From Candidatus Peribacter sp. (GTDB lineage Bacteria; Patescibacteriota; Gracilibacteria; Peribacterales; Peribacteraceae): a stretch of DNA of 35,048 nucleotides. Below, in pieces: positions 15,964-21,095 of this stretch (its first letter is position 1; each line of letters starts with the position of its first letter). Under the pieces are notes generated by a model. The model was given only the letters and a program-made list of their open reading frames with translations, did no database searches and was not told where the DNA came from. The stretch covers positions 1 through 35,048 of the forward strand of contig JAUSKD010000036.1 in the NCBI GenBank assembly GCA_030647195.1, read 5' to 3'. The position numbers were made by a program, and so were the translations under genes.

Positions 15964-16620
15964 ATGCGGCGCCTCTTTCCGCTTGTCCTTCTCGCGCTCA
16001 CCCTCGCCGGGTGCGGCTCCAAGACCGTGCGTCTCTCTCTCACCTTCGACGTGCAGGATTCCGTGCAACGGACCGTCCTCTTGGAAGAGAGCAAAAAGGT
16101 GATCGAACGGCGTTTAAGCCGCTTCGAGGACGCGACCCCCTCACCGATGATCGTGGAAAACGGACAGAGCGGCTCGGTGTTGCTCTCTTTCGATGTGAAC
16201 AATGCGGAAGCGCGTACAACGCTCGTCTCGGAACTCCTCACTCCCTATGACCTGAGGTTGATGACGGCGAGCACGGGAACGGGGGATCTGTTTGTGGAGG
16301 ACCAGGGCTGGTTCACGGCGACGGGGCTCACGCAGCGCCAGATCGTCTGGACGGAGGGCAATGCCGATCAGAATGGCAAAGGAGTGGTACGGCTCGTGTT
16401 TTCGGACGAAGGCCGCGCAAAGCTGGCCACGGTCTTCCGGAGCAACCCCGGGGGAACCATGGGGCTCTTCGTCCATGACAGGCTGATGGCGAAAATGCCC
16501 ATCGATACCAAGGAACCGAAGAAAGAAATCGTCATCGCAGGCATCCCGGTGCCCGACATGGCCGGGATCTTCGCCGATGACGTGAATGTGGGAACGCACG
16601 TAACGTTCTCCCTCCCCTAA
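15964..16620 (+). CDS. Lipoprotein resembling the SecD periplasmic domain
   Basis: The 218-residue protein starts at ATG 15964 with a lipoprotein signal (RRLFPLVLLALTLAGC). The mature part parallels the periplasmic region of SecD: TVLLEESKKVIERRLSRFE matches the helix of SecD that precedes the RINALGVSE motif, and LVFSDEGRAKLATVFR ... MGLFVHDRLMAKMPI matches SecD FDDEGAKLFQTLT ... IAIFVGGDLVSAPT in the next gene (residues ~540-565). It has no membrane helices apart from the signal. Lying directly before secD, it is probably a duplicated, lipid-anchored SecD P1-type domain acting at the translocon exit. This relation is a reading by eye. Confidence 0.75.
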   Translation: MRRLFPLVLLALTLAGCGSKTVRLSLTFDVQDSVQRTVLLEESKKVIERRLSRFEDATPSPMIVENGQSGSVLLSFDVNNAEARTTLVSELLTPYDLRLMTASTGTGDLFVEDQGWFTATGLTQRQIVWTEGNADQNGKGVVRLVFSDEGRAKLATVFRSNPGGTMGLFVHDRLMAKMPIDTKEPKKEIVIAGIPVPDMAGIFADDVNVGTHVTFSLP

Positions 16621-16622
16621 AG

Positions 16623-16654
16623 CCCTACCCCTATCCCTACTCCTAACCCTAACC
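16623..16654 (+). repeat. Hexamer CCCTAA-type tandem repeat E, copy 1
   Basis: Exact period 6: CCCTAC, CCCTAT, CCCTAC, TCCTAA, CCCTAA, CC, ending immediately at the secD ATG. It fills the whole gap between the lipoprotein stop and secD. Related copies are at 26760-26791 and 29094-29126. Confidence 0.85.
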
Positions 16655-19096
16655 ATGGACTCCAATCGTCGCTACATCTGGCCCGTCACCGCAGGCATCA
16701 TCGGGCTCCTGTTCCTCTTCATCGCTCTGCCGGACAACCTGAAGGCATGGGCCCCGGGAATCCTGCGTGCACCCACCTTCCATTTCGGTCTGGATCTGGT
16801 CGGGGGAACACAACTGGACTTCCGTATCTCGGAGCAGGAGATTAATGACCAAATCGGCCGGCTGGAAACGGAGATCGAGCAATTGAAAAATCAGAACGCA
16901 GGGTCCGAAAAGATTTCCATCCTTGAACTCCAGCTGCAGAGCACCAAGCAGCAGAAAACAGCGATCGTGGAATCCATCCGCACCGTCCTCGAGCGACGCA
17001 TCAACGCGCTCGGCGTGAGCGAGGCGGTGATCACGCCTTCCTACATGGGTGACGAAAAGCACCTGCTCGTGGAGTGCCCGGGCGTCGTGGATACGCAGAA
17101 GTGCATTGCCACCGTGGGCAAGACCATCCAGCTGGAATTCAAGGAGGAATTCACCGAAGCGACGAAAGAATTCGAGCAGGGGGTCCGCGACCGTGCGGAC
17201 GCCGCCCTGCGCCGCATTACCGTCAGCGGTGCCACGCTCCCCACCGTGGGGCAGGACCTCGGCTCCACGCTCGGCGTGGCCTTCAGCGACACACAGTGGT
17301 TCTTCAAAAAGGACCTGCCGAAGGGACTGGAGGATCTGTGGTCTGCACCGGTCGGAAAGGTGCTGAAGCGCGAAGGCTCCATCGTGGTTCCGCAGCAGGA
17401 TGAGAAGGGCCAGGTCACCGAAAAGACAATTGCAGGCATCTTTCTGGCCGAAGCCGTAGAGCCCAAGACGCAGACCGGCCGCCTCGTGCAGGAAGCTCCG
17501 ACTGCCTTCGGCATCCTGGCCAGGGAACGGCATCTCACCTACACACCGCATCAGGAGGTTCCCCTGGATGCGAAAGTGGATCCTGCCATTGTGGGCATGC
17601 TGCAGTCGATGACACCGGGCGATCTGAAAACGGTGAGTGTGGGCGCAAACTCGGCTGCGCTGCTCTTCCTCCGCCTGCGTAACCCCGGACAGGAGCAAAT
17701 GGCCGCCAGCCATATTCTCCTTTCCTTCAAGGGAGCTTCGGCGGTGAGTGACAAAGTGACCCGCTCAAAAGAAGAAGCGCTCACGCTGGCGAAAGACATC
17801 AAGAGTCAGCTCGACAAGGGTGCGGATTTTGCCACCCTCGCCAAGAAGTACTCGGATGACGGCAGTGGAAAATCGGGCGGCAGTCTGGGAACGTTCGTAC
17901 GCGGCGCGATGGTGGCTCCCTTCGAGCAGGCCGCTTTCGCCCTCACGCAGGACGGAATCAGTGAACCGGTAGAGTCGCAGTTCGGGTACCACATCATCCG
18001 CGCGGACCGTGCCGCTGCGCGCTCCTTTGATATCGCTTCCTACGATGAGCTCAGGTTCAGTGGCACCGACGCGAAAACGCAGGCGGATGCCGCAATGGCG
18101 GATCTGCAGGCAGGGAAAGTGCGGCAGGTGGAGGACGCCCTCGCGCTGCGCACGCTGTTCTTCTCGCTCCTCCCGACCGGGTGGAAGGATACCACGCTCA
18201 ACGGCAAGCACTTCCGCTCCGCGGCCGTGACCATGGACCCCACGACGAATCTGCCCGTCGTGCAGATCGCCTTCGACGACGAGGGCGCCAAGCTCTTCCA
18301 GACGCTCACCAAGAATAATGTCGGCAAGAGGATCGCGATCTTCGTGGGTGGCGACCTGGTTTCGGCCCCTACGGTGCAGACGGAGATTGCCGGCGGCACG
18401 GCCATTATCACGGGTAGCGGCAATATCGAAGAGGCCCAGAAACTCGCTCAGGACCTCAACACCGGAGCGATCCCTGCCCCCATCTACCTCGCCGGCCAGC
18501 ACACCATCGAAGCCACACTCGGCAGCGAGGCGCTCTCTGCATCTCTCAAGGCCGCGCTCATCGGCATCATCATCCTGATGATCTACATGATCATCCTCTA
18601 CCGCTTCTTGGGCGTTCTGGCCGACATCGCACTCGTCGGGTACGCACTCCTCTTCGTCGTCATCTTAAAACTCCCGCTGTTCTTCTTCTCGAGCCAGTAC
18701 ATCGTGCTGACCGTGGCGGGCATGGCCGGAATCATTCTGTCGCTCGGCATGGCGGTGGATGCGAACGTGCTCATCTTCGAGCGCATCAAGGAAGAGCTGC
18801 GCAAGGGCAAACTGGTGACCACGGCGGTCGAAATCGGCTTCAAGCGTGCCTGGCCCTCGATCCGCGACGGCAATGCTTCCACGCTCCTGACGTGCGCCAT
18901 TCTCTTCATCATCGGCACCTCCATCGTGCGCGGCTTCTCGATCACGCTGAGTATGGGCGTGCTGATGTCGATGCTCACGGCAATCGTCATGACGCGCTGG
19001 CTCATCCGCAAGACCTCGCACCTGGCATTCGCGAAGAACTCGTATCTTCTTGCAGGGATCCGAACGCAGCATCAAGTGGACATGCCACCGCAGTGA
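16655..19096 (+). CDS. secD: Protein translocase subunit SecD with inserted PPIC (parvulin) domain
   Basis: The 813-residue protein is SecD by its first helix, FGLDLVGGTQLDFRI, RRINALGVSEAVI, the FDDEGAKLF segment (541-549), IYLAGQHTIEATLG, five C-terminal helices and DANVLIFERIKEEL (Asp702). SecD uses the proton gradient to pull exported proteins through SecYEG. Between the two halves of the periplasmic domain, roughly 160 to 500, lies an extra region. Residues ~349-452 are a complete rotamase domain: ASHILLSF, GADFATLAKKYSDD, GGSLGTFVRGAMVAPFEQ, FGYHIIRAD. A weaker parvulin-like end (FFKKDLPKGLEDL) lies near 210-225. The protein is thus a SecD-prolyl isomerase fusion. No secF is in the window. 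Confidence 0.93.
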   Translation: MDSNRRYIWPVTAGIIGLLFLFIALPDNLKAWAPGILRAPTFHFGLDLVGGTQLDFRISEQEINDQIGRLETEIEQLKNQNAGSEKISILELQLQSTKQQKTAIVESIRTVLERRINALGVSEAVITPSYMGDEKHLLVECPGVVDTQKCIATVGKTIQLEFKEEFTEATKEFEQGVRDRADAALRRITVSGATLPTVGQDLGSTLGVAFSDTQWFFKKDLPKGLEDLWSAPVGKVLKREGSIVVPQQDEKGQVTEKTIAGIFLAEAVEPKTQTGRLVQEAPTAFGILARERHLTYTPHQEVPLDAKVDPAIVGMLQSMTPGDLKTVSVGANSAALLFLRLRNPGQEQMAASHILLSFKGASAVSDKVTRSKEEALTLAKDIKSQLDKGADFATLAKKYSDDGSGKSGGSLGTFVRGAMVAPFEQAAFALTQDGISEPVESQFGYHIIRADRAAARSFDIASYDELRFSGTDAKTQADAAMADLQAGKVRQVEDALALRTLFFSLLPTGWKDTTLNGKHFRSAAVTMDPTTNLPVVQIAFDDEGAKLFQTLTKNNVGKRIAIFVGGDLVSAPTVQTEIAGGTAIITGSGNIEEAQKLAQDLNTGAIPAPIYLAGQHTIEATLGSEALSASLKAALIGIIILMIYMIILYRFLGVLADIALVGYALLFVVILKLPLFFFSSQYIVLTVAGMAGIILSLGMAVDANVLIFERIKEELRKGKLVTTAVEIGFKRAWPSIRDGNASTLLTCAILFIIGTSIVRGFSITLSMGVLMSMLTAIVMTRWLIRKTSHLAFAKNSYLLAGIRTQHQVDMPPQ

Positions 19097-19721: not shown

Positions 19722-21095
19722 CTACCGTGCAATCCTGAGCAGTCTCTTCAGGAATGGCGTACGGATGATGACATCGGCAGCCGCAGCAAGAACAGAATCT
19801 TCCGTACAGAAAGCCACCCCCACTCCGGCAAACTTCACCATGCAGAGGTCATTGAAGCTGTCACCGACAGCGATAGTGTTGGCCAATTCAATGCCCTGCC
19901 GCTTGGCAAGGTGCAACATGGCGTTTGATTTGCAGAAATCGTGCGGACAGAGGCTCTGCTCGACATGTAGCAGAAAAGAAGGCATCTTCACCTCACCAGT
20001 CGCAACACTATTGGAAAACTCCAACTCGTTGCCCAAGCCAAAATCTGCACTGATTTTCTGTTGCACATGCAGCGCAACAAAATCGTAACTGTCGGTAATA
20101 ATTCCTGTGAAGTAACCCCGCTTCTTAAGACTTGCAATCACTTCTGCAGCATCGGGCACGATGGGAATCGCATCGGTGATCTCGATGAGCTCCGCAATGG
20201 TTCTCCCTTTCAGAAGCTGGGCGATTTTTTTCGTGCGCACGACATCCGTCTTCTCGGAAGAGCGAAGCTCCCGCAACTTTTCCTCAAACCCGAACTTCCG
20301 GGCGGCATGGTCGATGAATCTTCCGCGCAGAAGCGTATTGTCCATGTCAAACACTACCATCTTCTTAAGGTGGCTCACGCTCTCCCGGATGGCTAAATCC
20401 ATCTGATCGCGCACCACCCGAATGACCTCAAGAGAACTCAGGGACGATGAAGGCAGGCGGCTTGCACGCTTCAGGATCGCCCGTGCAACCTCGCGGGCCA
20501 TGGGAGAAAGCTCGGACCATGTTTTGGATTTGTGTGCAATCGATCCGATGGGCACTTCCACTATTCTCGACCCTTGGAGATGAGCATCAATGAGCAGGCC
20601 AATGTCCACCCCGTAGTCATTCTCGAAGGAAAGCTTTTCCAGTACGGACCTCCTGACGGCGATCATGCCGCTGAGCGGTTGGGAGAAATGGCTGAGAGCG
20701 GGAATAAGGAGCGTCAGAAGTGGCTTGGCAACAAGTTCCGTGACACGACCGGCCTCGCGCTCGAATGTCGCCTTAGTAAAATCTGCTTCATCGCGAATGA
20801 TGGGGCCAACCAGCTGCTCAATCGCCTGCGCATCGTACGACTGCACATCCGCATCCAGAAACACGACAATGTCCCCTTTTGACAGCAGGAAACCGTCGCG
20901 CATGGATGCCCCCTTCCCCAATCGGGTACTCGTGACGACCTTTGCGCCTGCATGCTTCGCACACTCGATGGTACGATCGAGGGATTTATCGTCAATGACG
21001 ATTACTTCTCCGACAGAGGGCGATCGCCGCGCAAACGCAACAACACCCTCAACCGTCCTCTCCTCGTTAAGAGTGGGAATGACTACCGAAATCAC
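19722..21095 (-). CDS. GpgS-like glycosyltransferase fused to HAD phosphatase
   Basis: Residues 1-~225 are a GT-A glycosyltransferase: VVIPTLNEERTV, VIDDKSLDRT, the metal-binding DAD at 81-83, and FEREAGRVTELVAKPLL ... QPLSGMIAVRRS ... YGVDIGLLID, which matches glucosyl-3-phosphoglycerate synthase better than ordinary GT2 enzymes. Residues ~245-457 are a SerB-like HAD phosphatase: nucleophile DMDNTL (Asp250), TDS (334), Lys389 and GDSFND (411-416). Inferred reaction: NDP-glucose + 3-phosphoglycerate to glucosyl-phosphoglycerate, then dephosphorylation to glucosylglycerate, a compatible solute and precursor, on one chain. Start GTG 21095. An alternative is an unrelated glycosyltransferase with a fused phosphatase. 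Confidence 0.82.
   Translation of the reverse strand: MISVVIPTLNEERTVEGVVAFARRSPSVGEVIVIDDKSLDRTIECAKHAGAKVVTSTRLGKGASMRDGFLLSKGDIVVFLDADVQSYDAQAIEQLVGPIIRDEADFTKATFEREAGRVTELVAKPLLTLLIPALSHFSQPLSGMIAVRRSVLEKLSFENDYGVDIGLLIDAHLQGSRIVEVPIGSIAHKSKTWSELSPMAREVARAILKRASRLPSSSLSSLEVIRVVRDQMDLAIRESVSHLKKMVVFDMDNTLLRGRFIDHAARKFGFEEKLRELRSSEKTDVVRTKKIAQLLKGRTIAELIEITDAIPIVPDAAEVIASLKKRGYFTGIITDSYDFVALHVQQKISADFGLGNELEFSNSVATGEVKMPSFLLHVEQSLCPHDFCKSNAMLHLAKRQGIELANTIAVGDSFNDLCMVKFAGVGVAFCTEDSVLAAAADVIIRTPFLKRLLRIAR

Follow-up and report, generated by a model that had tools for sequence, protein, structure and literature searches.

The question raised by this locus is whether a bacterial export motor can carry its own protein-folding helper. 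The window, meaning the whole stretch of DNA that we analyzed, comprises 35,048 nucleotides of Candidatus Peribacter sp. (contig JAUSKD010000036.1, assembly GCA_030647195.1), and a preliminary description had proposed that one of its genes encodes SecD motifs on both sides of a complete rotamase domain. A single unbroken frame at 16655–19096 on the plus strand encodes this 813-residue SecD (P0001), for which full-length relatives exist. It opens with an N-terminal transmembrane helix (residues 5–23; 16667–16723, +), assigned from AlphaFold secondary structure and the established SecD topology. The SecD GG motif GLDLVGGTQLDF follows at residues 42–59 (16778–16831, +; PF07549), with G45, D47, G50, and G51 invariant among 26 aligned homologues. 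Next come the P1 base (SecD_1st, residues 106–164; 16970–17146, +; PF21760, 7.9e-13), the canonical PpiC-type parvulin (residues 346–456; 17690–18022, +), the P1 head (residues 509–612; 18179–18490, +; PF22599, SecDF_P1_head 511–608, 3.5e-27), and the C-terminal membrane domain (18491–19018, +; PF02355, SecD_SecF_C 616–784, 9e-10). The membrane domain carries an RND-type motif (GMAVDANVLIFER) around D702, the conserved aspartate of the proton path, which was invariant in alignment A2. The parvulin was matched by Rotamase_3 (PF13616) at 346–450 with an E-value of 1.4e-28 and by Rotamase (PF00639) at 353–451 with 1.6e-25, so that the region 340–455 does hold a significant PpiC-type match. The motifs and positions given in the preliminary description were correct, namely ASHILL with H353, YSDD at 399–402, and FGYHII with H446.

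Pfam and NCBIfam agreed on the identity of the protein. All of the Pfam matches exceeded their cut-offs except that to the GG motif, which was weak, and the P1 base, P1 head, and RND-type membrane domain occur in the order that defines SecD (PF21760, PF22599, PF02355). The SecD equivalog model TIGR01129 matched at 4.4e-99, with 332.3 bits against a cut-off of 244.4. NCBIfam also paired the parvulin part with PrsA- and SurA-type isomerases; essentially the PPIase part alone of the PrsA, SurA, and PpiD models was matched, with scores under the cut-offs, and no SurA_N or PrsA-type N-terminal chaperone domain was found among the Pfam matches. A SecF partner is present in the same genome (TIGR00966, 242.5 bits, G000:C28). 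This secF gene (L135:2023–4371) is unlinked to secD and sits immediately before the trigger-factor gene. The protein therefore shares with SecD/SecDF of the Sec holo-translocon (TIGR01129; PDB 3aqp, 5yhf) the GG motif, the P1 base and head, the RND-type membrane domain with its conserved aspartate, and a SecF in the genome, but differs in having about 345 extra residues, with a parvulin tandem, between the P1 base and head. The product of 16655–19096 is thus a genuine SecD with a parvulin between P1 base and P1 head, and it would still supply the SecD half of the SecDF motor, which is driven by protons.

Since the source assembly is a draft genome in 57 contigs, an artefact of assembly or binning that fused two genes had to be considered. 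We searched 58 related genomes for the whole protein and found it at full length, including the parvulin, in about 30 genomes of the Peribacteria family, with 52–86% identity. The junctions were identical in dozens of independent genomes, including the single-contig assemblies G003 and G033. This recurrence rules out an assembly join, and we regard the artefact as refuted, with practically no probability left to it.

The other families of the class yielded 20 SecD proteins, 12 of which contained a significant parvulin; in some, a weaker copy was present as well. Among those with the standard genetic code, the parvulin was kept in 12 of 16, while all four SecD proteins from TGA-reassigned genomes of the class were without one. 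Four class members (L032, L037, L040, and L047) had the insert with a weak parvulin match or none. Together with the TGA-recoded members, these cases indicate that the fusion is dispensable over evolution, which we count against the explanation favored below.

We then scanned 84,980 species and kept the best 80 named loci. Profiles built from the class alignment showed SecD and parvulin sharing one frame in Peri-, Peregrini-, and Gracilibacteria, as well as in Uhr-, Magasanik-, Falkow-, Kerfeld-, Buchanan-, and Moranbacteria, many of this second set having two units of which the first was weak; the sampled Nomura-, Gottesman-, Doudna-, and Berkelbacteria were without the fusion. The insertion point was constant across two deep Patescibacteria groups, always falling between the P1 base and the P1 head. 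In eight loci (L041, L056, L057, L059, L060, L061, L062, and L082), the frame ran on into a SecF-like part and reached about 1,025–1,150 residues, so that SecD, parvulin, and SecF form one chain. One parvulin-bearing SecD that nests among Patescibacteria comes from a record titled Lysobacteraceae (L070), which is probably mislabelled or a mixed bin. In an even draw across the phylum, a single match covered both parvulin and P1 head in 46 of 287 genomes, among the matches listed, and these included all 25 class members having a SecD match. No match spanning both domains was listed for 117 genomes of another phylum (Gastranaerophilales record). Two deep groups of the Patescibacteria, a large branch of tiny uncultured bacteria, share the architecture. 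On a SecD-core tree, fusion presence required at least eight changes, three of them forced by starred branches, indicating a history with several gains or losses. A single origin was rejected as a settled account, because this tree did not separate one gain followed by losses from several gains.

Whether the inserted domain can act as an isomerase was judged from its active site. The PF00639 match covers positions 1–96 of the 97 in the model and scored 90.3 bits against a cut-off of 21.7, and the pocket is intact, with H353, H446, L411, M419, F423, S441, and D402. Of 84 canonical parvulin domains taken from SecD proteins, 83 retained H446; the H353 column was present in 69, and 67 of those kept the histidine. 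F423, L411, G409, G444, and a Thr or Ser at 441 were invariant or nearly so. The position of Pin1 Cys113 is more variable: it is Asp (D402) here, Gly in 26 of 32 Peribacteria, and Asp or Glu in most others. In Bacillus subtilis PrsA, half of the activity survives replacement of the same aspartate (D154A; PMC2678132), so Gly at this position need not abolish activity. The conserved histidine pair and pocket, taken with the PrsA result, make prolyl-isomerase catalysis by the SecD parvulin likely. The Gly found in most Peribacteria nevertheless counts against our explanation.

Structure prediction, which the preliminary description had suggested, supported this picture. An AlphaFold model of the insert (residues 160–515, 13 sequences) had a mean pLDDT of 92, and the parvulin fold is formed in it. 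Foldseek superposed the domain on the Pin1 isomerase domain (4tns_B) at 0.9 Å over 108 columns, with 38% identity and an E-value of 8e-10. The full-length model (mean pLDDT 83.9) found SecDF crystal structures as its best structural matches, then Pin1; its pTM of 0.45 leaves the arrangement of the domains uncertain, a further point against our explanation. By sequence, the closest solved match to the parvulin domain comes from a fragment of PrsA (6xd8, 1.5e-19), and Pin1 is one of those that follow.

In the model, the insert as a whole looks like a parvulin tandem of two degenerate units, a canonical unit, and a half unit. The degenerate units were assigned by our own reading of strand and helix order, and the predicted topology places unit A, without the catalytic His, at about residues 160–262 (17132–17440, +), a shortened unit B at about 263–345 (17441–17689, +; predicted topology only), and the half unit D, a strand and a helix, at about 460–490 (18032–18124, +). 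The canonical unit between B and D bears H353, D402, M419, F423, S441, and H446. In the SecD of 16655–19096, hhalign with the family profiles did not detect a further parvulin copy. In relatives, a weak first parvulin is detectable by sequence where unit A lies, and unit D is fuller in L033, L034, and L042, with a weak second profile match in L033. The earlier suggestion that the insert may hold a second copy is therefore partly right: the predicted structure, in which two parvulin-like units precede the canonical unit and a half unit follows, makes it plausible, and the hhalign search of this protein gave it no support.

The degeneracy of most tandem units, the Gly at the Cys113 position in most Peribacteria, and those class members whose insert, located identically, shows no recognisable active site all fit a module that serves as a non-catalytic chaperone or docking surface, holding unfolded chains or contacting envelope partners, with isomerisation incidental. 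One unit has stayed canonical, however, and across two deep groups both of its histidines and its Phe/Met/Ser pocket are conserved; the half activity left in PrsA D154A (PMC2678132) weakens the argument from the Gly. We consider a purely non-catalytic role unlikely, though deserving of serious weight.

The length of the insert bears on another alternative. Among 128 SecD proteins, the segment between base and head measured 119–403 residues in those with a parvulin match; 44 had no such match, and in 34 of these it measured 7–55 residues. An insert at the base/head hinge, which so few residues bridge in most other SecD proteins, might act as a structural spacer, or as an alternative P1 domain, adjusting the SecDF stroke with no part in chaperoning. 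Conservation of a prolyl-isomerase pocket is not expected of a spacer, and relatives have lipid-anchored proteins in which P1 and parvulin occur without a membrane motor; we therefore regard this alternative as very improbable. The proteins in question are lipobox lipoproteins of the distant relatives G046 (L134:2015–3433, −) and G061 (L136:1423–2817, −), which combine P1-type parts with a parvulin and have no motor part. No SecD was found in G046 in the search of related genomes. In G276, a 479-residue frame (C3:143930–144640) likewise contains a parvulin and a P1 head without a motor part.

The reading that we favor, and hold to be probable, is that a foldase or chaperone is fixed at the translocon exit within a genuine SecD by means of the parvulin tandem in P1; its location, catalysis, and substrate we infer. 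In this view, a tandem parvulin module would have entered the extracytoplasmic P1 domain between its base and its head, one unit staying intact while its neighbors degenerated. Being covalently part of P1, the parvulin should ride beside the P1 head. Its fusion into the outer part of SecD is confirmed, and with SecD topology this would place it at the translocon exit, as the preliminary description had argued. There, the P1 head would bind the chain leaving SecYEG with the parvulin positioned next to it, and the parvulin would most likely isomerise X-Pro bonds and shield emerging segments. In the simplest mechanism, it may act on chains as they are pulled by SecDF, filling in cis the role that SurA, PpiD, and PrsA fill in trans.

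Known systems provide parallels for such an arrangement. In Escherichia coli, SurA binds the SecYEG–SecDF–YidC holo-translocon, and in AlphaFold models its parvulin domains lie against the P1 head of SecDF (PMC9987972). PpiD associates with SecYEG (PMC9643414). Both resemble the fused SecD in bringing parvulin units to the translocon exit, but they are separate proteins recruited in trans with N-terminal chaperone parts of their own, which were not found in the fused SecD. PrsA, the lipid-anchored foldase of Gram-positive bacteria and the closest solved PPIase by sequence (6xd8), differs in being a free lipoprotein outside the translocon. The closest solved fold is the PPIase domain of human Pin1 (4tns). 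Pin1 is phospho-specific and intracellular.

The gene immediately upstream of secD (15964–16620, +) encodes a lipoprotein with the lipobox LAGC and a SecD-like P1 base and head without a membrane domain (PF22599, E 0.006, a weak match); its product is a predicted paralogue of the SecD P1 ectodomain. A P1-type lipoprotein gene occupied this place in 31 of 34 Peribacteria loci, and the other three start or end at a contig edge on the upstream side. The lipoproteins and the G276 frame suggest that the ectodomain, with or without a parvulin, also serves apart from the motor. From the stop of the lipoprotein gene to the start of secD (16621–16654) runs a CCCTA-like pyrimidine repeat in which no Shine–Dalgarno sequence is obvious; comparable repeats occur in some congeners. 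Elsewhere in the window, one open reading frame (19722–21095, −) combines a family-2 glycosyltransferase with a HAD phosphatase, as if the synthase and phosphatase of one pathway had been fused. As an extension of our reading, which we raise tentatively and think doubtful, the SecD parvulin tandem and the upstream lipid-anchored P1 copy (in relatives, P1–parvulin copies) could together form an exit-site folding station. SecDF would pull the chain, isomerisation would occur in place, and a lipoprotein mimicking the SecD ectodomain would then receive the chain. If true, such a dedicated Patescibacteria folding station would be a translocon arrangement undescribed so far.

We also examined the proposal that a built-in foldase replaces free chaperones in a reduced genome. 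The source genome is 98.6% complete, and the SecD domain is its only PF00639 match. Parvulin matches were confined to the SecD frame in 44 of the 45 class genomes with a match over the cut-off, the exception being the lipoprotein of G046. FKBP matches in the family numbered one per genome, in trigger-factor-sized frames; that of the source genome is the trigger factor adjoining secF. Most genomes had one cyclophilin, which opens with a lipobox signal in the source genome (G000:C48, L139:390–1664) and in four other genomes that we read. The lipobox cyclophilin at G000:C48 is a predicted second, free extracytoplasmic prolyl isomerase, so extracytoplasmic prolyl isomerisation would not depend on SecD alone. 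In a wider set reached through the 84,980-species scan, an additional parvulin outside SecD was present in 12 of 31 genomes with the fusion, and 12 of 19 without it had no parvulin at all, indicating that across the phylum the fusion is no simple substitute for a gene that was lost. A general rule that free foldases are strictly replaced is ruled out by the lipoprotein cyclophilin and the 12 fused genomes with an extra parvulin. What stands of the proposal is that SecD holds the sole parvulin in nearly all genomes of the class; the retained cyclophilin lipoprotein and both sets of 12 genomes speak against replacement, and genome reduction as its cause was unsupported.

A full-text search of open-licence papers found no description of a SecD–parvulin fusion; domain databases may show the architecture uncommented. 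SecD and parvulin are each known, and it is their union and its breadth that are unexpected. It has been proposed that SecDF recruits parvulin chaperones at the channel exit, as with SurA on the P1 head (PMC9987972), and a widely conserved covalent fusion at the same P1 domain provides independent evolutionary support for that proposal. The fusion also supplies one-chain constructs for testing parvulin action at SecDF and shows where the sole parvulin of most genomes in the class of Peribacteria resides. These findings show that an export machine among the most conserved has been remodeled in a lineage known chiefly from its genomes, and they suggest that proteins are folded on leaving the export channel by a helper built into the channel machinery.
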